Assembly: GCA_903938485.1 (NCBI GenBank)
Contig: CAJADF010000133.1
Span: 1 to 59,203, forward strand
Origin: an uncultured Methylococcaceae bacterium
GTDB taxonomy: Bacteria; Pseudomonadota; Gammaproteobacteria; Methylococcales; Methylomonadaceae
Reading direction: 5' to 3'
DNA: 59,203 nt
Part shown: positions 18,404-28,077 of the stretch, piece after piece
Position numbering within the stretch: position 1 is the stretch's first letter
Layout of the letters: each line of letters begins with the position of its first letter
The notes under the pieces: model-generated
What the model was told of the DNA's origin: nothing
Database searches by the model: none
The model's input: only the letters and a program-made list of their open reading frames with translations
Position numbers and translations under genes: made by a program

Positions 18404-20044
18404 ATGTCTGCTGCTGAAGATGCACATGATCACCATGATGATCACCACCACGATCACGGACCTGAAAAAGGTTTGTTAAGATGGATTATTACTACGAATC
18501 ATAAAGACATAGGTACTTTGTACTTATTGTTCGCTTTAACTATGTTTTTTGTGGGTGGCGCTATGGCGATGGTAATTCGAGCTGAATTATTTGAGCCAGG
18601 TTTACAATTTGTAGATCCTGCATTTTTTAACTCAATGACTACAATGCATGCATTAGTTATGGTATTTGGTGCAGTTATGCCCGCTTTTGTTGGATTAGCT
18701 AATTGGCAAATTCCGTTGATGATTGGTGCAACTGATATGGCATTACCTCGCATGAATAACATGAGTTTTTGGATGTTAGTTGCGGGTGTTTTATTGCTAG
18801 CGAGCACTTTATTTATGGAAGGTGGCGCACCTAATGGAGGTTGGACTTTATACCCTCCTTTAGTATTGCAACCCATTACTGTTGGTAAAGCATTACCTTT
18901 CGCTATTTTCTCAGTGCATTTATTGGGTATCTCATCAATCATGGGTGCTATCAATATTATCGCAACTATTTTCAATATGCGCGCCCCCGCTATGAAATTA
19001 ATGGACATGCCATTGTTCGTATGGACTTGGTTGATTACTGCTTTCTTGTTAATTGCTGTTATGCCAGTATTTGCTGGTGCAGTGACTATGTTATTAACGG
19101 ATAAGTTTTTCCATACTAGCTTCTTTAATGCGGCGGGTGGTGGTGATCCAGTATTGTACGAACATATCTTCTGGTTCTTTGGTCACCCAGAAGTATATAT
19201 TATGATTCTGCCTACTTTCGGTGTGGCATCTACAATCATTCCTGTTTTTGCTCGTAAGCCATTATTCGGTTATGCATCGATGGTTTGGGCAACTGCATCT
19301 ATTGCATTTTTGTCATTTATCGTATGGGCGCATCACATGTTTACTGTGGGTATGCCAATTGCGGGTGAGTTGTATTTTATGTACGCAACCATGATTATTG
19401 CGGTACCAACAGGGGTAAAAGTGTTTAACTGGACTGCAACTATGTGGAAAGGAGCAATGACATTTGAAACTCCCATGTTATTTTCAATAGCATTCGTGGT
19501 TTTATTCACTTTGGGTGGCTTTACTGGTTTGATGATGTCAATTGCACCATCTGATTTTCAATACCATGATACCTATTTTATTGTGGCACATTTCCATTAC
19601 ACCTTAGTACCTGCATCTGTGTTCATATTGATGGCTGCGGGTTATTTTTGGTTGCCTAAATGGACTGGCAATATGTATAACGAAAAAATTGGACAGTTAC
19701 ATTTTTGGTTGTCCGTTATTTCTGTAAATATATTATTTTTCCCACAACATTTTTTAGGTTTAGCGGGTATGCCTAGAAGGATTCCAGATTATGCGGTGCA
19801 ATTTGCAGATTGGAATATGATTTCTAGTGTGGGTGGTTTTATATTTGGAGCAAGTCAATTACTTTTTCTTTATATAGTTATTGATACTATTAGAGGCGGA
19901 ACTGGTGAGAAGGTTTCTGATGAAGTATGGGAGGACGCAAGTAAGCATAGCTTAGAGTGGACATTGCCTACTCCGCTTCCTTATCATACTTGGACTACGC
20001 CACCAGCAAGTGTTCCTACTGAACACGTGTTGGATTCACATTAA
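18404..20044 (+). CDS. coxA: Cytochrome c oxidase subunit I
   Basis: This is the catalytic heme-copper subunit (546 residues, about 12 membrane helices). HALVMVFGAVMP holds the low-spin heme ligand region. The CuB/active-site helix reads WFFGHPEVYI (the His-Pro-Glu-Val-Tyr cross-link motif of A-type oxidases), and HDTYFIVAHFHY holds the heme a/a3 ligands. It lies 55 bases after coxB with an AGAGGT ribosome-binding site. The N terminus is unusual: seven histidines occur within residues 8-18, before the first helix. Confidence 0.97.
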   Translation: MSAAEDAHDHHDDHHHDHGPEKGLLRWIITTNHKDIGTLYLLFALTMFFVGGAMAMVIRAELFEPGLQFVDPAFFNSMTTMHALVMVFGAVMPAFVGLANWQIPLMIGATDMALPRMNNMSFWMLVAGVLLLASTLFMEGGAPNGGWTLYPPLVLQPITVGKALPFAIFSVHLLGISSIMGAINIIATIFNMRAPAMKLMDMPLFVWTWLITAFLLIAVMPVFAGAVTMLLTDKFFHTSFFNAAGGGDPVLYEHIFWFFGHPEVYIMILPTFGVASTIIPVFARKPLFGYASMVWATASIAFLSFIVWAHHMFTVGMPIAGELYFMYATMIIAVPTGVKVFNWTATMWKGAMTFETPMLFSIAFVVLFTLGGFTGLMMSIAPSDFQYHDTYFIVAHFHYTLVPASVFILMAAGYFWLPKWTGNMYNEKIGQLHFWLSVISVNILFFPQHFLGLAGMPRRIPDYAVQFADWNMISSVGGFIFGASQLLFLYIVIDTIRGGTGEKVSDEVWEDASKHSLEWTLPTPLPYHTWTTPPASVPTEHVLDSH

Positions 20045-20106: not shown

Positions 20107-20202
20107 ATGACAATAAAAAATAAGAATATTTTAACAGCGGTTATATTAGGGGCTATCACCTTAGTTTTCTATTTATTTGCTGTCGCACAAGCCGTATCTT
20201 AA
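20107..20202 (+). CDS. 31-residue membrane peptide of the cox locus
   Basis: A short ORF begins MTIKNKNIL and continues with one hydrophobic helix, TAVILGAITLVFYLFAVAQ, ending AVS. Its stop overlaps the ctaG start (TAATG), which indicates coupled translation. One-helix peptides at this position between coxA and ctaG are known in Proteobacteria as cytochrome oxidase small assembly proteins. Family membership is inferred from position, size and topology. Confidence 0.65.
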   Translation: MTIKNKNILTAVILGAITLVFYLFAVAQAVS

Positions 20203-20753
20203 TGACAGATTCTATTAGTAAAAAAAATCTTAAATTAGCTCGAAGCTTATTATTAGTTGCAGTTGCTATGTTTGGTTTTGGTTATGCTTTAGTGCCTATT
20301 TATGATGTGTTATGCGAGTGGAAATGGATAGAGCGTGATAGGCCAGATGATATAAAGAAAGTATCAGAATCCGCTTATAAAGTGGATGTTAATAGGGAAA
20401 TTACTGTGGAGTTCTTAACAGTATTAAATGAATCTACCCCTATGGATTTTCATGCAGAAGTTAAGCAAATAAAAGTGCATCCTGGGGAATACCATACGGT
20501 AAATTTTTATGCTGAGAATAAAACAAATAAAGAAATGAAATCTAGAGCTATCGCTAGTTTTTCACCCGCTCTTATAAGTAAATATTTTGAAAAAATTGAG
20601 TGTTTTTGTTTCTCAGAGCAAACCTTTAAAGCGAGGGAAACTAAAAAAATGCCGATGCGTTTTGTTATTAATCCAGAAATACCTGAGCAATATAAAACTA
20701 TTACACTTTCATACACATTTTTCGATAATACTGAAAGGTCAGTAAATAATTAA
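20202..20753 (+). CDS. ctaG: Cytochrome c oxidase copper assembly protein CtaG/Cox11
   Basis: Cox11 delivers copper to the CuB site of subunit I. The 183-residue protein has one N-terminal transmembrane helix (about residues 11-31), the family segment GYALVPIYDVLCE, and the copper-binding ECFCFSEQ motif (about 136-143). Its C-terminal end matches the periplasmic immunoglobulin-like domain (MPMRFVINPEIP). It lies between coxA and coxC as is standard. Confidence 0.95.
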   Translation: MTDSISKKNLKLARSLLLVAVAMFGFGYALVPIYDVLCEWKWIERDRPDDIKKVSESAYKVDVNREITVEFLTVLNESTPMDFHAEVKQIKVHPGEYHTVNFYAENKTNKEMKSRAIASFSPALISKYFEKIECFCFSEQTFKARETKKMPMRFVINPEIPEQYKTITLSYTFFDNTERSVNN

Positions 20754-20768
20754 AAAAAGGGGAAACTA

Positions 20769-21620
20769 ATGTCTACAAATAGCACCTATTACATACCGCA
20801 TAAAGCGACTTGGCCCGTTATTGGTACGGTTGGGTTGATGATTATGCTTGCGGGATTTGCCAACTTCTTAAACGGATCTTCAATTGGGCAGCCATTGATG
20901 ATAGTTGGTTTATTAACATTTATTACTATGTTGGTCGGATGGTTCAGTTTACAAGCTAAAGAAAGTGAATCGGGCATGTATAATCATGAGGTCGGAATCT
21001 CGTATAGACATGGCATGATGTGGTTTATCTTCTCGGAAATAGTATTCTTTGCTGTGTTTTTTGGAACATTGTGGTACACAAGAAATTTATCGGTACCTTG
21101 GTTAGGTGAAGGGGCAACTAAGGAACTTTTATGGCCTGCTTTTGATGCCACTTGGCCAACAAACGGTCCTGGTAAAGTGGGTGGTGAATTTGAACCCATG
21201 GGTGCATGGGGTTTGCCTTTTTTAAACACTTTACTTTTATTAAGTAGTGGCGTGACTTGTACATGGGCTCATCATGGTTTGCTAGCTAAGAACCGAGGCC
21301 AATTGATTAAAGGTTTAATTGCTACTGTTGCATTGGGTTTTTTGTTTGTATGTTTTCAAGCGATTGAATATCATGAGGCATATACAGAAATGGGCTTAAC
21401 ATTAGGATCGGGTGTTTATGGCTCGACATTCTTTATGTTAACGGGGTTTCATGGCTTCCATGTTTGTGTGGGTGCTATCATTTTAAGTGTTGTATTGTTT
21501 CGTAGTACAAGAGGACATTTTTCCCCAGAGAATCACTTTGCATTTGAAGCTGCAGCATGGTACTGGCATTTTGTGGATGTGGTTTGGTTAGGTTTGTTTA
21601 TTTTTGTTTATTTAATGTAA
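20769..21620 (+). CDS. coxC: Cytochrome c oxidase subunit III
   Basis: This 283-residue membrane protein with seven predicted helices stabilises the subunit I active site. Family motifs include GMMWFIFSEIVFF, LLLSSGVTCTWAHHGL, FMLTGFHGFHVCVG and the closing AAAWYWHFVDVVWLGLFIFVY. It has a good AGGGGA ribosome-binding site and is followed by a hairpin, so it is the last gene of the cox transcript. Confidence 0.97.
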   Translation: MSTNSTYYIPHKATWPVIGTVGLMIMLAGFANFLNGSSIGQPLMIVGLLTFITMLVGWFSLQAKESESGMYNHEVGISYRHGMMWFIFSEIVFFAVFFGTLWYTRNLSVPWLGEGATKELLWPAFDATWPTNGPGKVGGEFEPMGAWGLPFLNTLLLLSSGVTCTWAHHGLLAKNRGQLIKGLIATVALGFLFVCFQAIEYHEAYTEMGLTLGSGVYGSTFFMLTGFHGFHVCVGAIILSVVLFRSTRGHFSPENHFAFEAAAWYWHFVDVVWLGLFIFVYLM

Positions 21621-22053: not shown

Positions 22054-22767
22054 ATGAACTTTAAGAAAACGCCAACAATTATGTATTTATGTGTATTACC
22101 GATATTAATTTCTTTAGGTTTTTGGCAATTAGATCGAGCTTCAGTGAAGACCTTAATTCTTGAAAAGCGTCAGTCAGGCTTAGCTACTTCAGAAATAGTA
22201 TCGTTATCAAAAAGTACTGAAAACAACCTAGATTTACTGAAATATAAAAAAGTTAAGTTGCAAGGGCGTTATGATAAAGAACATCAATTTCTGATTGATA
22301 ATCAGATAAATGCCGGTAAAGTTGGTTATTTAGTATTAACACCTTTTATACTGTTTGATGGCCCTCAAGCAGTATTAGTAAATAGAGGTTGGGTTCCGCT
22401 TAATACAAATAGAAATCTCTTGCCGGAAATAAAAATACAATCCGATCCTGACGAGCTTACTGGGAGAGTAAATAGTTTTCCAAGTGTTGGAATTAAATTG
22501 GATGGAGCAGAAATACCAAGTTCTAATTGGCCGTCAATTGTTCAAGTAGTTGATACACCTGTTTTAGAAAATATACTGGGCTATACTCTTTTTAGTTTTC
22601 AAGTTGAATTGGATAAAGATTTGCCAGAAGGTTTTAAGCGCGATTGGCAGGTAAGTTCGATTATGTTGCCTGAACAGCACATAGCATATGCTGTTCAGTG
22701 GTTTGCTTTAGCTCTGACATTAACAGTGTTGTTTTTTTGGTATAGTAAGAAGAATAAAGATGATTGA
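22054..22767 (+). CDS. SURF1 family cytochrome oxidase assembly protein
   Basis: SURF1 proteins help insert heme A into subunit I. The 237-residue protein has the expected topology: one helix at each end (about 7-22 and 212-232) and a periplasmic domain between them. Family motifs are GFWQLDRA near the N terminus, LVNRGWVP in the middle and YAVQWFALALTL at the end. It overlaps the next gene by eight bases. It is transcribed divergently from the DUF2909 gene, so a promoter should lie in 21948-22053. Confidence 0.92.
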   Translation: MNFKKTPTIMYLCVLPILISLGFWQLDRASVKTLILEKRQSGLATSEIVSLSKSTENNLDLLKYKKVKLQGRYDKEHQFLIDNQINAGKVGYLVLTPFILFDGPQAVLVNRGWVPLNTNRNLLPEIKIQSDPDELTGRVNSFPSVGIKLDGAEIPSSNWPSIVQVVDTPVLENILGYTLFSFQVELDKDLPEGFKRDWQVSSIMLPEQHIAYAVQWFALALTLTVLFFWYSKKNKDD

Positions 22768-23497
22768 ACAACAGAAAAAAAATCAAATATTAATAGTCGC
22801 TATTTTTTCATTAACTATTATTCCGTTTTTAATCGCGTGGGGATTAAAAGAAAATCCTAATTTAGTTAAAGGAACTACAAATAGAGGTCAATTAGTAACA
22901 CCTCCAATTACAATAGCAGAGCAAGATATCACAGGGTTCGATGCTTTTTCGGTTAATAATCTAAAAGAATTACACGGGCATTGGTTGATTGTTAATGTTA
23001 TTCCAAATGATGGCTGTAATAAGGTGTGTCTAGAAGCCTTGTTAAAGACTAAGCAATTGCGATTGATGTTGAATAAAGAATTACCTCGTACTAGACGCGT
23101 AGCAATTTTATATCAAAATCCGAGTGAAGTTGTTGCGGCGGAATGGTGGTTAAAAGACACCTTGTTATGGCGTTTAAATCTACTTGAAGATAAAGACAGT
23201 CATGATCTTTATGCAAATTTATTGCATCAAGAAAATAAACTGGAAACTTCATTGGTTGATAAACTGATACAAAATGAGAATAAAGAATTAGCACTTAATT
23301 CTGATTTAATAAGAATTAAATTGAGTGCTGAAGTATTAAAAAAAATAGCAGTGATCAGTAATCAACCTGTCCAAGACGGAATACTTTTTTTAATTGATCC
23401 ATTAGGCAACTTAATGATGCAATATGATTCAGGATTTGATACCTATAAGGTAAAAGACGATCTAATGCATTTACTTAGAATTTCACAAATTGGCTAG
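22760..23497 (+). CDS. Oxidase-associated membrane protein with a CxxxC motif
   Basis: This 245-residue protein has one N-terminal transmembrane helix (about 10-26) and a periplasmic domain that looks thioredoxin/Sco-like: HGHWLIVNVIPNDGCNKVC places a CxxxC motif after a beta strand, and GILFLIDPLGNLMMQY resembles the C-terminal part of Sco proteins. The third copper ligand (histidine) of true Sco proteins was not found. Genes of this type are usual between SURF1 and ctaA. A redox or copper role in CuA maturation is inferred. Confidence 0.7.
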   Translation: MIEQQKKNQILIVAIFSLTIIPFLIAWGLKENPNLVKGTTNRGQLVTPPITIAEQDITGFDAFSVNNLKELHGHWLIVNVIPNDGCNKVCLEALLKTKQLRLMLNKELPRTRRVAILYQNPSEVVAAEWWLKDTLLWRLNLLEDKDSHDLYANLLHQENKLETSLVDKLIQNENKELALNSDLIRIKLSAEVLKKIAVISNQPVQDGILFLIDPLGNLMMQYDSGFDTYKVKDDLMHLLRISQIG

Positions 23498-23507
23498 CGA
23501 GTAGAGG

Positions 23508-25457
23508 ATGTTTAGAAAATTTACAATGTTCAGTGTTGTTTTAACAGGAATCATCTTGGTATTGGGATCTCTTGTTAGGATAGGTGATATATATTCCGGT
23601 GTTATTGACCCCGGTTTAATTGAAGTAATAAAAACACAAGGACACAACTACTTAACTACTTCTTTGGTATTAACTGTTTTATATTTAAACGTAGCCACTT
23701 GGTTGCAGAAACCAGTTAAATTTAAACTTGTTATTATTAGTCTTTTACTACTGGTATTAGTTTCAATTCAAACGACATTAGCTTATTTTGCTATTGCCCT
23801 TATTAATTACCCAATAGTTATCGTTATACATGTTCTACTGGGGTTATTTACATTTTGGTTGCTATATTATTTATATTTGCATTCAGATCCTCAATTTAAT
23901 GACTTAGCTGTAAATAAAAAACCACTATCTAGGCTGGTTTTAGGACTACATTTCATTGCATTTATTTCATTGCTAGTACAAATAACTTTGGGTATTTGGG
24001 TTGGTGCTAATCATGCAGGTATCGCTTGTGTTGGTTTTCCACAATGTAATGGTCAATGGTTACCACATGCGGATTTTGCAAGTGCAATTGATCTATTTAG
24101 AGGCTTAATCACACAATACAATGGTGTCATCTCCTATGATGCCCAAGTTGCAGTGAACTATTTGCATCGTGTTATAGCTTTAATCGTATTCATCGTAATT
24201 AGTGTTGTGATGTTTATTGCGACATCAATCCATTCATCTAAGTCAGTTAAAACTGCTGGTATAGTTTTAGGAAGCTTATTATTTGTATTGTATGGATTAG
24301 AAATAGTTGCTCTTAAGTTTAATTTGCCTTTATGGATAGGTGTTTTGCATCACGCTTTGGCTGCAGTATTAATGTTGCCATTGATAGCGATTAGTTTTTA
24401 TAGTCGTTACAGCGTTGACTCATTGTCTCAAATAGAGGTTGTAAATAAACCAATATTAGACACGGGTATATCTAAAGAAGTTAAAGATTTAGCCTCTTCA
24501 ACTGATAAAGTCGACGTATATGAAGAGCCTTTGCCAGAGTCTTTATATGTAAGGCTTAAATCACAGTTAAAAAGAACTAGAACTGGATTAAGCGGCATTT
24601 TGTCAGGTTTGCCGTTGGGCCAAAAAGAAATTAATGCGGAATTAATCGAAGATATAGAAGCTAATCTGTTGATGGCTGATGTGGGTATCGATGCGACTAC
24701 AGAGATTATTAGACATTTAACAAGTAACCTTGAGAGACATGAGCTAAAAGATAGTGAGGCTTTATCGGCAGCATTAAAAGTAGAGTTATTCAGAATACTT
24801 AAACCGTGTAGTCAACCATTACAAATACCCAAACAAAGCGCACCATTTGTAATATTAGTGGTTGGGGTTAATGGTGCGGGTAAGACGACAACGATTGGGA
24901 AATTAGCAAAACGCTTACAAGCCCAGGGGCATAGTGTGATGCTTGCGGCGGGTGATACATTCCGAGCCGCTGCGGTAGAGCAATTACAGGTGTGGGGTGA
25001 GCGTAATAATATTCCTGTTGTAGCGCAGCATACGGGTGCTGACTCGGCTTCTGTTATATATGATGGTTTACAATCAGCTAAAGCAAAAGGAATTGATGTT
25101 TTAATTGCAGATACAGCTGGACGTTTACATACGAAATCAAATCTAATGGAGGAATTAAAGAAAATTAAAAGAATAATGGGGAAATTAGATGAGTCTGCTC
25201 CTCATGAGGTTCTATTGGTTTTAGATGCAGGTACTGGGCAAAATGCGCTGTCGCAGGCTAAGTTGTTTAACGAAGCCGTCTCATTAACAGGTTTAGTGCT
25301 TACAAAATTGGATGGAACTGCAAAGGGTGGGGTGATATTTGCTTTGGCTAAGCATACTGCGACTCCCATTCGTTTTATAGGTATAGGTGAAGGTATTGAT
25401 GATTTGCAGGATTTTGATGCCGAATTATTTGTAGAAGCCTTATTTGTGCAAGATTAA
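23508..25457 (+). CDS. Fusion protein: heme A synthase-like membrane domain + FtsY SRP receptor
   Basis: One uninterrupted 649-residue frame joins two normally separate proteins. Residues 1-300 form a CtaA/COX15-like domain of eight hydrophobic helices. Histidines at about 46, 108, 220 and 281/282 match the four heme-ligand positions, and the second half keeps the cysteine pair (ACVGFPQCNGQW) and NYLHR. The first half is degenerate: ExxHR reads TQGHN and the first cysteine pair is missing. A linker (about 301-341) leads into a complete FtsY NG domain: P-loop GVNGAGKTTT (453-462), DTFRAAAVEQL, DTAGRLHTK and TKLDGTAKGG. The usual acidic A domain is absent. An even number of helices places the GTPase in the cytoplasm. 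ftsE follows five bases later, as in ftsYEX. Confidence 0.92.
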   Translation: MFRKFTMFSVVLTGIILVLGSLVRIGDIYSGVIDPGLIEVIKTQGHNYLTTSLVLTVLYLNVATWLQKPVKFKLVIISLLLLVLVSIQTTLAYFAIALINYPIVIVIHVLLGLFTFWLLYYLYLHSDPQFNDLAVNKKPLSRLVLGLHFIAFISLLVQITLGIWVGANHAGIACVGFPQCNGQWLPHADFASAIDLFRGLITQYNGVISYDAQVAVNYLHRVIALIVFIVISVVMFIATSIHSSKSVKTAGIVLGSLLFVLYGLEIVALKFNLPLWIGVLHHALAAVLMLPLIAISFYSRYSVDSLSQIEVVNKPILDTGISKEVKDLASSTDKVDVYEEPLPESLYVRLKSQLKRTRTGLSGILSGLPLGQKEINAELIEDIEANLLMADVGIDATTEIIRHLTSNLERHELKDSEALSAALKVELFRILKPCSQPLQIPKQSAPFVILVVGVNGAGKTTTIGKLAKRLQAQGHSVMLAAGDTFRAAAVEQLQVWGERNNIPVVAQHTGADSASVIYDGLQSAKAKGIDVLIADTAGRLHTKSNLMEELKKIKRIMGKLDESAPHEVLLVLDAGTGQNALSQAKLFNEAVSLTGLVLTKLDGTAKGGVIFALAKHTATPIRFIGIGEGIDDLQDFDAELFVEALFVQD

Positions 25458-25462
25458 TTAAG

Positions 25463-26119
25463 ATGATTCATTTTCTTAATGTAATTAAGCGTTACGAAGA
25501 GACAGGTGATGTGCTTCGTAACATCAGTTTTAATCTCGAACGGGGTGAAATGGCTTTTCTTACCGGGCATTCAGGTGCTGGTAAAAGCACTCTATTAAGA
25601 TTAATTGCGGTTATGGAGCGTTGTACTCGTGGTCAAATTATTGTTGATGGACATGATTTAAATCTGGTAAGAGAAAGTCAATTGCCATTTATAAGAAGAA
25701 AAATGGGCTTTATCTATCAGGACTATAAGCTACTCAATGATAGAACCGTATTTGATAATGTGGCATTACCGTTAATTATTGCTGGTTTTAGCCATCAAGA
25801 AGTCACCAGGCGTGTCAGAGCTGCATTGGAAAAAGTGAGTTTACAAGGCAAAGAAAAAAAGTACCCATTGGCATTGTCCGGAGGTGAGCAGCAACGAGTC
25901 GGTATTGCGCGTGCTGTGGTTAATAAGCCCCCTATTATTATTGCTGATGAACCTACTGGGAATTTAGATCCAGAGTTATCTGCAGAAATTATGGAATTGT
26001 TTAGACAATTTCAGCAGGTTGGTGTCACGATATTAATCGCAACCCACGATATTTCTTTAATTTCACAATTAAATCAACGTGTCTTAAAGTTAGATCACGG
26101 TCAATTGGTGGTGAATTAA
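25463..26119 (+). CDS. ftsE: Cell division ATP-binding protein FtsE
   Basis: FtsE is the ABC ATPase of the FtsEX complex, which links the Z ring to septal peptidoglycan hydrolase activation. The 218-residue protein has Walker A GHSGAGKSTL (about 36-45), signature LSGGEQQRVGIARA, Walker B IIIADEPTGNLD and the switch histidine in IATHD. It follows the fused FtsY frame by five bases and precedes ftsX by three. Confidence 0.97.
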   Translation: MIHFLNVIKRYEETGDVLRNISFNLERGEMAFLTGHSGAGKSTLLRLIAVMERCTRGQIIVDGHDLNLVRESQLPFIRRKMGFIYQDYKLLNDRTVFDNVALPLIIAGFSHQEVTRRVRAALEKVSLQGKEKKYPLALSGGEQQRVGIARAVVNKPPIIIADEPTGNLDPELSAEIMELFRQFQQVGVTILIATHDISLISQLNQRVLKLDHGQLVVN

Positions 26120-26122
26120 TTT

Positions 26123-27139
26123 ATGAAACGTGTAAATAAAAATCGTATTAAAAAAGATCCACCTATTAAGCAAGTTAAACAAGAAAAACGTCAAACGACT
26201 TTAGCAGGTGGAACGTTTACTGATAAGCTTATTGCTTATCGAGATATACATGCACAGGCATTATTTTCCAGTTTAGGACGCATGATTGCGACACCTTACA
26301 GTTCGATAATGACGATTGCTGTTTTAGCAATATCTATTTCCTTGGCTTGCGGTTTTTATGTTGTCGTGGTTAATATTCACCAATTAACAGGTAATTTGCA
26401 AACTAGTAGTCAAATTTCATTATTTCTTAGGGATGAGGTTTCGGATGCTCATGCTAAAAAGATGTCAGAAAGCATTCTAAATAATCAGAATGTTCAGAAA
26501 GTTGACTTAATCAGTAAAGATCAGGCCTTAGCAGAGTTTAAAGATTATAGCGGTTTTGGATCTGCGATTAATGCTTTAAAGAAAAATCCGCTACCTATCG
26601 TAATTCAGGTTTTGCCTAAAAACACCTTAACAGATAAGCAAGGTTTAGCTGATTTATTAAAAAAATTTCAGCAAATGCCAGAGGTTGATTTCGCACAATT
26701 CGATTTGCAATGGGTAGAGCGTTTGCAAGCGATTGTAGAAGTGGCGCAGGTATTTGCATTTTTGTTGAATATTTTATTAGCGGCTGCTGTCTTATTTGTT
26801 ATTGGAAATACAGTGCGTTTAGAGTTTTATGGTAGACGAGCTGAAGTGGTTATTTCAAAGTTAGTGGGGGCAACTAATGCATTTATTTGTCGGCCGTTTT
26901 TGTATACTGGTTTTTGGATAGGTTTTATATCAGGGGTCAGCGCTTGGTTTATTGTTACCCTCTTAATGTTAATCTTAAGAGGGTCTGTTGAAAGGTTGTC
27001 AGGTCTTTATGAAGGTGACATGCATCTGCAATTTCTCGGCTTTTCAGAAACATTGTTTTTAATTTCTACTTCTTCAATCTTAGGCATATTGGGTGGATGG
27101 GTGGTTTTATTTTGCGAGCTGAGATCCAATAAGCTTTAG
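26123..27139 (+). CDS. ftsX: Cell division permease-like protein FtsX
   Basis: FtsX is the membrane partner of FtsE and activates amidases through its EnvC-type partners. The 338-residue protein has a basic cytoplasmic N terminus (about 1-55), a first helix near 66-88, a periplasmic loop to about 205, and three further helices in the C-terminal half, where the conserved RAEVVISKLVGATNAFI lies. Length and topology are typical for Gammaproteobacteria. Confidence 0.95.
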   Translation: MKRVNKNRIKKDPPIKQVKQEKRQTTLAGGTFTDKLIAYRDIHAQALFSSLGRMIATPYSSIMTIAVLAISISLACGFYVVVVNIHQLTGNLQTSSQISLFLRDEVSDAHAKKMSESILNNQNVQKVDLISKDQALAEFKDYSGFGSAINALKKNPLPIVIQVLPKNTLTDKQGLADLLKKFQQMPEVDFAQFDLQWVERLQAIVEVAQVFAFLLNILLAAAVLFVIGNTVRLEFYGRRAEVVISKLVGATNAFICRPFLYTGFWIGFISGVSAWFIVTLLMLILRGSVERLSGLYEGDMHLQFLGFSETLFLISTSSILGILGGWVVLFCELRSNKL

Positions 27140-27160: not shown

Positions 27161-27187
27161 TTAGCACTCTTTGGTCGAGAGTGCTAA
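27161..27187 (+). promoter_or_regulatory. CIRCE operator (HrcA site) in front of rpoH
   Basis: TTAGCACTC (27161-27169), nine bases, then GAGTGCTAA (27179-27187): both arms match the CIRCE consensus exactly and the spacing is the canonical nine. It sits 33 bases before the rpoH start. Its right arm overlaps a possible extended -10 (TG, one base, TAAAAT at 27185-27190), so HrcA binding would block transcription from that promoter. The operator itself is read directly; HrcA control is established for CIRCE in general and inferred here. Confidence 0.93.
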
Positions 27188-27219
27188 AATCGCAAAAAAT
27201 CTTTTTACTTGGAGATAGT

Positions 27220-28077
27220 ATGAATAGCCCACTAGCATTACCCGTTAATTTGTCGGTTGGAACATTCGATGCATATTTGAATTTAGTAAGACAAATGCCG
27301 CGTTTAACGGTTGAAGAAGAAAGAGAGTTAACGCTTAGATACAGAGATGAAGGTGATTTAGAGGCAGCTAGGCAGTTGGTTATGACCAATTTAAGATTTG
27401 TAGTTCATGTTGCTAAAGGATATAGCGGTTATGGATTATCAATGCCAGACATTATTCAAGAAGGTAACATTGGTTTAATGAAGGCTGTTAAACGTTTTGA
27501 TCCTGATGTAGGCGTGCGTTTAGTTTCGTTTGCGGTGCATTGGATTAAAGCCGAAATTCATGAATATGTCATTAAGAATTGGGGCATAGTTAAGATAGCT
27601 ACGACAAAAGCACAACGTAAATTGTTTTTTAATTTACGTAAATCTAAACAAGACTTAGGTTGGTTATCTAATGCTGAGGCTATGGCTTTAGCAGATGATT
27701 TAAATGTAGATTTAAGTGATGTTTATGAGATGGAGAAGCGTTTAAGTAGTCATGACATGTCTTTCGATATGCCTGCAGATGAGTCAACTGAAGAGACTGC
27801 TTTTTATCCCGCCAGTTATCTTCAGCAACATGGATCCGATCCTTTAGAGTTATTAGAAAATGCTGATTGGGAAGGTCATGGACATGATTTATTATCTGAA
27901 GCAATGGCAAAATTAGATGCACGCAGCATCGATATTTTAACCAGTCGTTGGTTAGTTGAAGATAAAGCGACATTACATGAGCTTGCGGAACGATACAATG
28001 TTTCTGCAGAAAGAATTAGGCAGTTAGAACAAAATGCTATGAAGAAAATAAAAGCTTCTATAACCTTAGTTGCTTAA
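27220..28077 (+). CDS. rpoH: Heat-shock sigma factor RpoH (sigma-32)
   Basis: RpoH directs RNA polymerase to heat-shock promoters. The ATG at 27220 is chosen over one 39 bases upstream because GGAG lies correctly before it and the protein then begins MNSPLALPVNL; the upstream option would read through the CIRCE arm. The 285-residue product has region 2 (LRFVVHVAKGYSGYGL, IIQEGNIGLMKAVKRFDP), the RpoH box (QRKLFFNLRK, about residues 131-140) and region 4 with the helix-turn-helix (LHELAERYNVSAERIRQLE). It is last in the ftsYEX-rpoH order. Confidence 0.97.
   Translation: MNSPLALPVNLSVGTFDAYLNLVRQMPRLTVEEERELTLRYRDEGDLEAARQLVMTNLRFVVHVAKGYSGYGLSMPDIIQEGNIGLMKAVKRFDPDVGVRLVSFAVHWIKAEIHEYVIKNWGIVKIATTKAQRKLFFNLRKSKQDLGWLSNAEAMALADDLNVDLSDVYEMEKRLSSHDMSFDMPADESTEETAFYPASYLQQHGSDPLELLENADWEGHGHDLLSEAMAKLDARSIDILTSRWLVEDKATLHELAERYNVSAERIRQLEQNAMKKIKASITLVA

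Follow-up and report, generated by a model that had tools for sequence, protein, structure and literature searches.

A natural fusion of a heme A synthase-like membrane domain with the SRP receptor FtsY in Methylococcales

FtsY is the essential receptor that delivers new membrane proteins. In the 59,203-nucleotide stretch of DNA analysed here (the window), one open frame appeared to join such a receptor to a membrane domain resembling the heme A synthase CtaA. Is this joined frame a real gene with a single product, how did it arise, and what could an enzyme-derived domain do for an SRP receptor?

The fused gene and its product

The ctaA::ftsY fusion gene occupied positions 23508–25457 on the plus strand as a single open frame of 649 codons (649 amino acids), running exactly from the ATG at 23508 to the stop codon at 25455–25457, with no internal stop. 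The Pfam family COX15-CtaA (PF02628) covered residues 46–290 with 83.6 bits against a cut-off of 29.9, which places this part in the COX15/CtaA family. SRP54_N (PF02881) and the SRP54 GTPase family (PF00448) matched residues 361–427 and 446–646, respectively, above their cut-offs. The original prediction of a CtaA-like domain and FtsY in one protein was thus borne out by a frame of 649 codons holding both families above cut-off. Four parts were delimited, all on the plus strand: the N bundle of the CtaA-like domain (TM1–TM4, residues 1–135, positions 23508–23912), which is the ancestral heme O/A catalytic half; the C bundle (TM5–TM8, residues 139–300, 23922–24407), the predicted heme b domain; a disordered linker (residues 301–345, 24408–24542); and the FtsY NG domain with its N-terminal helix (residues 346–649, 24543–25454).

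The C-terminal part scored 367.5 bits against the NCBIfam ftsY equivalog TIGR00064 (cut-off 260.7) and is thus a member of FtsY. It possessed the N domain and a G domain with the G1–G5 motifs (GVNGAGKTT, DTFRAAA, DTAGR, TKLDG and GIGEG, starting at residues 453, 483, 535, 599 and 625, respectively), and residues 338–648 of the fusion aligned with E. coli FtsY structures at 391 bits. A second ftsY, for which a search had been proposed, was not found in the genome of the window (2.51 Mb in 134 contigs, 99.95% complete): the fusion was the only match above the FtsY cut-off, and a second, weaker FtsY match was Ffh (568.2 bits, cut-off 473.2). As the only FtsY of its genome, the fusion should therefore serve as the receptor. 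At four loci with an unfused FtsY (L114, L115, L116 and L327) the protein measured 329–346 amino acids and started with a short MFGFGKKK leader. The helix opening the N domain (LYVRLKSQLKRTRTGL) was retained in the fusion. It had been supposed that the A domain of FtsY is gone and that eight helices stand in its place; the helices are present, but the part they replaced was, judging from the four unfused loci, a short leader and not a large A domain. The linker of the Methylomonas koyamae fusion (L119:4001–6052) contained a long, strongly acidic EA repeat that recalls the FtsY A domain.

The window protein was modelled with 12 relatives using AlphaFold2. The model, with a mean pLDDT of 70.4, showed eight long helices within the first 300 residues (2–29, 37–66, 72–97, 102–125, 139–167, 210–238, 245–270 and 275–298), over which the ten-residue pLDDT means ranged from 53 to 96 and were mostly above 75. 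A simple hydropathy scan detected seven of the eight. In the linker region, pLDDT fell below 50 at residues 313–347 and 349–375. A Methylobacter protein with an intact site displayed the same layout, and with a pTM of 0.51 in both models the mutual placement of the halves was not fixed by them. Searching with the whole model in Foldseek returned 132 PDB matches at E-values up to 0.001; the best 50 of the 132 were all SRP GTPases, and no structural match to the CtaA half appeared among these best 50. The helix count being even, both ends lie on one side of the membrane, and a functioning FtsY requires that side to be the cytoplasm. The eight helices and the sound topology claimed earlier are in agreement with the eight helices of the model, their even number and the known topology of CtaA.

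Family scans upheld the flanks expected from the two parents, with COX1, CtaG/Cox11, COX3 and SURF1 upstream and FtsE, FtsX and RpoH downstream. The upstream genes identified by family match, all on the plus strand, were coxA (cytochrome c oxidase subunit I, 18404–20044), ctaG/cox11 (20202–20753), coxC (cytochrome c oxidase subunit III, 20769–21620) and a SURF1-family cytochrome oxidase assembly gene (22054–22767). They were followed on the same strand by a cox-cluster gene without a Pfam match (22760–23497), which ended 10 nt before the fusion. The product of this gene ended in LLRISQIG, and by motif search 21 of 28 fusion loci had a gene of this kind. Downstream, again on the plus strand, ftsE (25463–26119) started 5 nt past the fusion stop and preceded ftsX (26123–27139) and rpoH (27181–28077), all three above their NCBIfam cut-offs.

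Distribution of the fusion and unity of the frame

Looking for the same junction in related genomes had been suggested as a check. In a first sample of 41 Methylococcales genomes, taken without selection, 33 carried the full-length joined frame, four had fragments and four had separate genes. The full-length fusion was found in 21 of the 25 genomes of the window's genus and in 12/12 of families f2–f6. All fragments belonged to the window's genus (G004, G005, G022 and G023) and lay at contig ends for at least G004, G022 and G023. The four genomes with ctaA and ftsY apart belonged to families f7 and f8, which may be Cycloclasticus-like. Across the order, 311 of 311 genomes matched the query. The single-protein reading therefore stands for the window and is wider than the one genome for which it was made, extending to families f1–f6 of the order.

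Named carriers were Candidatus Methylobacter oryzae KRF1 (664 aa), Methylomonas sp. SURF-1, Methylomonas koyamae R-45383 and an uncultured Methylococcaceae bacterium (687 aa). Family f1 includes Methylobacter and Methylomonas, f4 includes the Methylococcaceae record, and both Methylobacter oryzae and Methylomonas koyamae are placed in Methylococcales by the NCBI taxonomy. The scan of named genomes gave at least 80 loci, mostly ordinary CtaA genes; of the six in which both halves were placed, four were fusions (L117, L118, L119 and L155) and two (L139 and L163) had the two halves apart. The window comes from a draft of 134 contigs, a circumstance in which a junction might be produced by assembly or binning; this one, however, is common to many independent genomes. 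An assembly error can be excluded because the same joined frame is present in 33 of the 41 sampled genomes, some of them single-contig, and in the four named records, so that an artefact is vanishingly improbable. That the fusion is real and conserved is well supported.

Among 369 genomes sampled from the class, the fusion occurred in three of the four members of the order and was absent among the listed matches from the 365 genomes outside it, six genomes of the sample giving no match at all. In a sample of 398 genomes from the phylum, overlapping the former, it occurred in the window's own genome only, among the matches listed. Both lists comprise best-scoring matches, and a much more divergent fusion could escape them. 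The window's genome possessed an AmoC/PmoC-family gene (E-value 1.2e-120), in line with a methanotroph. A link between the fusion and methane oxidation through this gene was considered and rejected, as 16 of 18 genomes with the fusion and 6 of 7 without it had a match, the latter with lower scores.

Residues were counted on 207 loci, one per genome, chosen from listed matches and nearly always for their long frame, and these counts are no measure of prevalence. The aligned set comprised 205 of them, with frames of at least 480 codons, after removal of G023 (contig end) and G088 (halves in separate frames); the site counts also omit G004, whose frame breaks off inside the CtaA part, giving n = 204. 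The set leaves out 104 genomes of the order, including the 20 of f7 and f8 (four of which were read for gene order) and G109. In G088 the separate frames lie on contig C243 (4354–5791), and in G109 the match on contig C246 has one in-frame TGA; these are possible broken or split fusions, or sequencing errors.

The two halves might also work apart, with FtsY translated from an internal start codon or cut free at the linker and the joined frame incidental. Median dN/dS values, obtained from 58 non-overlapping close pairs of fusions, were 0.041 for the FtsY part (57 usable pairs), 0.099 for the C bundle (56 pairs), 0.169 for the N bundle (55 pairs) and 0.274 for the linker (50 pairs, two at 1 or more). 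The linker, with a length of 15 to 60 residues (median 39) in the aligned fusions, is disordered and fast-evolving, as separate halves would allow; the TTG codons at 24423 and 24531, the separate frames of G088 and the TGA of G109 point the same way. The internal starts proposed earlier at these two TTG codons did not hold up, however, because they were not conserved: the commonest junction column with a start-type codon, nearly always TTG, was filled in 67/205 fusions, and 58/205 had no ATG, GTG or TTG at all across residues 300–360. No start codon is common to all, and the joined frame has been kept across six families. A Shine–Dalgarno scan matched 7 of 150 ftsE starts and 1 of 169 fusion starts and is uninformative on internal initiation, control starts rarely matching. 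We consider separately working halves very unlikely; the NG part could be freed by proteolysis in the linker.

Predicted heme sites of the CtaA part and the other CtaA copies

All CtaA reference residues, numbered as in B. subtilis and including H216, R61, R217, C35, C42, C191 and C197, were placed on the alignment by motif. According to passages of PMC8239418 and PMC7327177, CtaA is made of two four-helix bundles: in the C-terminal bundle two histidines bind heme b, and the catalytic site for heme O/A seems to lie in the N-terminal bundle. The residues E57, H60, H123 and H278 are named in PMC8239418.

In the window, the N bundle had a shortened first extracellular loop and a decayed ExxHR motif, TQGHN (residues 43–47, 23634–23648, plus strand), in which T43 replaces E57 and H46 is kept. 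His108, the H123 equivalent (23829–23831, plus strand), was kept too, and the E57/H60/H123 set of an active heme A synthase is therefore incomplete by its glutamate. The ECL1 cysteine pair, also looked for as a mark of an active synthase, was missing in the window and in the 31 aligned members of its genus (one of them cut). In the C bundle the predicted b-type site was complete on the plus strand, with the ECL3 cysteine pair Cys174/Cys180 (CVGFPQC, 24027–24047), His220-Arg221 (24165–24170, equivalent to H216-R217) and His281 (24348–24350, equivalent to H278), the two histidines being predicted heme b ligands. With loop 1 and the catalytic glutamate gone and another CtaA in the genome, the window's CtaA-like part probably has no heme A synthase activity.

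The same asymmetry was observed throughout the aligned fusions. At the N site, E57 was kept in 78, H60 in 140, R61 in 116 and H123 in 137 of the 205, and E57, H60 and H123 occurred together in 62/204. At the C site, H216 was kept in 201, H278 in 202 and each ECL3 cysteine in 201 of the 205. Both heme b histidines were present in 138 of the 142 fusions with a decayed N site, and so were both ECL3 cysteines (138/142). Eight of the 205 frames ran off the 5′ edge of the fetched stretch; among the remaining 197, 60 were intact, and the decayed ones kept the histidines in 134/137 and the cysteines in 135/137. On a FastTree phylogeny of the FtsY part, parsimony counted 20 changes at the N site, a number that alignment noise near the deleted loop may inflate, and 4 at the C site. 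With genus weighting, the five best-kept of the 300 columns in the 142 decayed fusions were the two ECL3 cysteines, which ranked highest, P178, H281 and H220, and the E57 column ranked 295 of 300. One-sided decay, of the N bundle and not of the C bundle, is thus well supported by the alignment. It is not peculiar to the fusion, because unfused CtaA proteins with E57K and H123N are already listed in Table 1 of PMC8239418.

One or both C-site histidines were lost in 4/204 fusions (G237, G246, G297 and G268). The CtaA part was decayed furthest at L306 and L332 (genus g33) and L296 (g36), where the fusion and the helices remain. Two of the three g33 members had no ECL3 cysteines, G268 among them also having lost the heme b histidines, and the g36 member had no histidines. 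Two fetched members of genus g34, which counts 18 genomes, were frames of 565 codons with a shortened N bundle.

A search for a second ctaA had also been proposed, and a separate second CtaA was indeed present in the window's genome, with 187.5 bits compared to 86 for the fused domain. No cox gene was recognised in the 11 kb around it. This second gene (L331:5520–6509, contig C113) overlapped a YgfZ-family gene and had TEYTNR in place of ExxHR, an H60N type. Two or more CtaA matches were found in most genomes of the order.

Where the fused CtaA was the only one found and completeness was 93% or more, it was intact in 5/5 genomes, from two lineages (G251–G254 of genus g29, and G028). COX1 was found in G252, G253 and G028 and not in the drafts G251 and G254. 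Over all 17 genomes with a fused CtaA only, 9 were intact and 8 decayed, compared to 53 intact and 134 decayed in the other 187 (Fisher p = 0.051). These 17 were listed by hand; in the 9 intact ones the single match was shown within the long fused frame, and in the 8 decayed ones the single match was taken as the fused gene from its score. Incomplete drafts were many among them, and G250 (92% complete) and G157 (90%) were awkward decayed cases. A strict rule, by which the N site decays only in the presence of a second CtaA, fits the five most complete genomes and was rejected as not significant over the 17.

It could then be argued that every carrier has in the fused protein a functional heme A synthase, which makes heme A where oxidase subunit I is inserted. 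Such a reading would account for the 62/204 fusions that keep E57, H60 and H123, for the intact site of genus g29 (four genomes) and G028, in which no other CtaA was found, and for the position of the gene behind cox assembly genes in the window and at L117. It has against it the 142/204 fusions, the window's included, that have lost at least one N-site residue, and the two or more CtaA matches of most genomes of the order. As a statement about all carriers it is quite unlikely. For the intact lineages a heme A synthase may well be true, and the conserved residues of the five intact genomes with a fused CtaA only are suggestive of a working enzyme there.

Origin, proposed function and known systems

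The separate genes of f7 and f8 were close to each other. At L114 (f7) the order was coxA, coxC, a SURF1-like gene, a small gene, ctaA, ctaB and an aspartic-protease-family gene, followed on the opposite strand by rpoH, ftsX, ftsE and ftsY (ctaB, rpoH, ftsY and the protease identified by family scan, the other genes read by eye). The gene between ctaB and rpoH had been considered as sco, which was rejected since the family scan assigned it to the clan AA aspartic proteases. Inverting the stretch from ctaB to ftsY in L114 brings ftsY directly behind ctaA and a reversed ctaB behind rpoH. In f6 (L111 and L112) the fusion was followed by ftsE, ftsX, a pmoC-like gene and rpoH, and then by ctaB on the opposite strand; family scans confirmed ctaB and rpoH in both and ftsX in L111, and the pmoC-like gene was named from AmoC matches. 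The latter, found in G035 and G029, lay between ftsX and rpoH at L111:8769–9590 and L112:8530–9366. By motif search, none of the other fusion loci, taken with flanks of about 5 kb, showed a reversed ctaB; the window has none either, and the ctaB of the window's genome was on another contig. An origin by inversion is supported by gene order, through the order in the outgroup and the relic in one family. The fusion would have arisen once, before f1–f6 diverged, by an inversion that set the 5′ end of ftsY against the 3′ end of ctaA, and the original fusion would still have functioned as a heme A synthase. In most lineages the second CtaA would then have become the source of heme A, and the N bundle, with its heme O/A site, would have decayed repeatedly.

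We propose that the present protein, as its sequence suggests, is probably an SRP receptor integral to the membrane, whose anchor binds heme b and whose ancestor was a heme A synthase fused to FtsY. In this model both termini are cytoplasmic, as the even number of helices and the established topology of CtaA suggest. Anchoring would be permanent: the GTPase would remain at the membrane, where ordinary FtsY binds lipids reversibly, and would receive SRP–ribosome complexes there. Because the C bundle has retained both heme b histidines and the cysteine pair, the anchor is probably a b-type heme protein, heme binding being suggested by ligand conservation. Heme would not be strictly required, because 4/204 fusions are without one or both C-site histidines. 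It may simply stabilise the bundle or, as a speculation, let the receptor sense heme or redox state. In the Aquifex heme A synthase the trimer core consists of the C bundles, according to a passage of PMC7327177, so that a structural or oligomeric function of the conserved heme site is no less possible than a regulatory one. The further idea that the SRP receptor is a cytochrome, in which heme occupancy, redox or C-bundle trimerisation controls SRP-dependent insertion and couples the respiratory and methane-oxidising machinery to the heme supply, is speculative and unlikely.

The CtaA part could also be a mere hydrophobic anchor, for which any polytopic domain would do, the histidines being kept for folding and not for heme. 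A working membrane-tethered FtsY would fit this reading as well as the anchored receptor proposed above: passages of PMC2780400, which cite Zelazny (1997), state that FtsY tethered by a transmembrane domain, and placed on an unrelated membrane polypeptide, works in vivo. The fusion and its helices have moreover persisted where the heme b ligands were lost, in G268 (one of three in g33), G297 (the sole g36 member) and G237 and G246 (g28). A plain anchor would not, however, require that two histidines and two cysteines be among the five best-kept of 300 columns in decayed fusions, nor that the C site change 4 times compared to 20 for the N site. This alternative appears somewhat unlikely. Since the heme b half was kept and the catalytic half decayed repeatedly, the pattern points to a use of the heme site other than heme A synthesis, and an enzyme has seemingly been turned into an anchor.

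How tightly FtsY must be bound to the membrane, and whether a soluble FtsY is needed, have been studied with engineered tethers. The receptor being apparently permanently anchored in six families, these questions become testable in nature. Both the fusion and the underlying inversion serve, too, as markers of a branch within Methylococcales. No report of a CtaA–FtsY fusion was found in the open-licence PMC text, and the fusion is undescribed in this searchable literature. A membrane-anchored SRP receptor is already a known kind, as passages of PMC2780400 and of PMC5533587 (citing Maeda 2008) indicate; what is new is an eight-helix, enzyme-derived anchor with heme ligands.

With the E. coli-type FtsY, the fusion shares the NG GTPase, the five G motifs and the helix opening the N domain. 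Lipid-binding regions attach FtsY to the membrane in E. coli, whereas eight transmembrane helices precede the N domain in the fusion. The FtsY of Gram-positive bacteria and Streptomyces lividans is also a membrane-anchored SRP receptor in the passages concerned (PMC2780400, PMC5533587), but through a single transmembrane or hydrophobic N-terminal segment in place of a whole eight-helix enzyme-derived domain with heme ligands. The engineered membrane-tethered FtsY has the same design and is reportedly fully functional; it is man-made, whereas the fusion is natural and present in six families. The CtaA/COX15 heme A synthases of class B type 1.1 (Table 1 of PMC8239418) resemble the fusion in their eight helices and two bundles, in the two cysteine pairs of intact fusions and in the E57, H60 and H123 of 62/204, and differ from it in that the fusion is joined to FtsY and its N-bundle site has decayed in the window and in most aligned fusions. 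In the CtaA–CtaB fusions mentioned in passages of PMC8239418 and PMC9145763, ctaA is likewise joined to another gene, but to one for the enzyme that acts just before CtaA in its own pathway and not to that of the SRP receptor.
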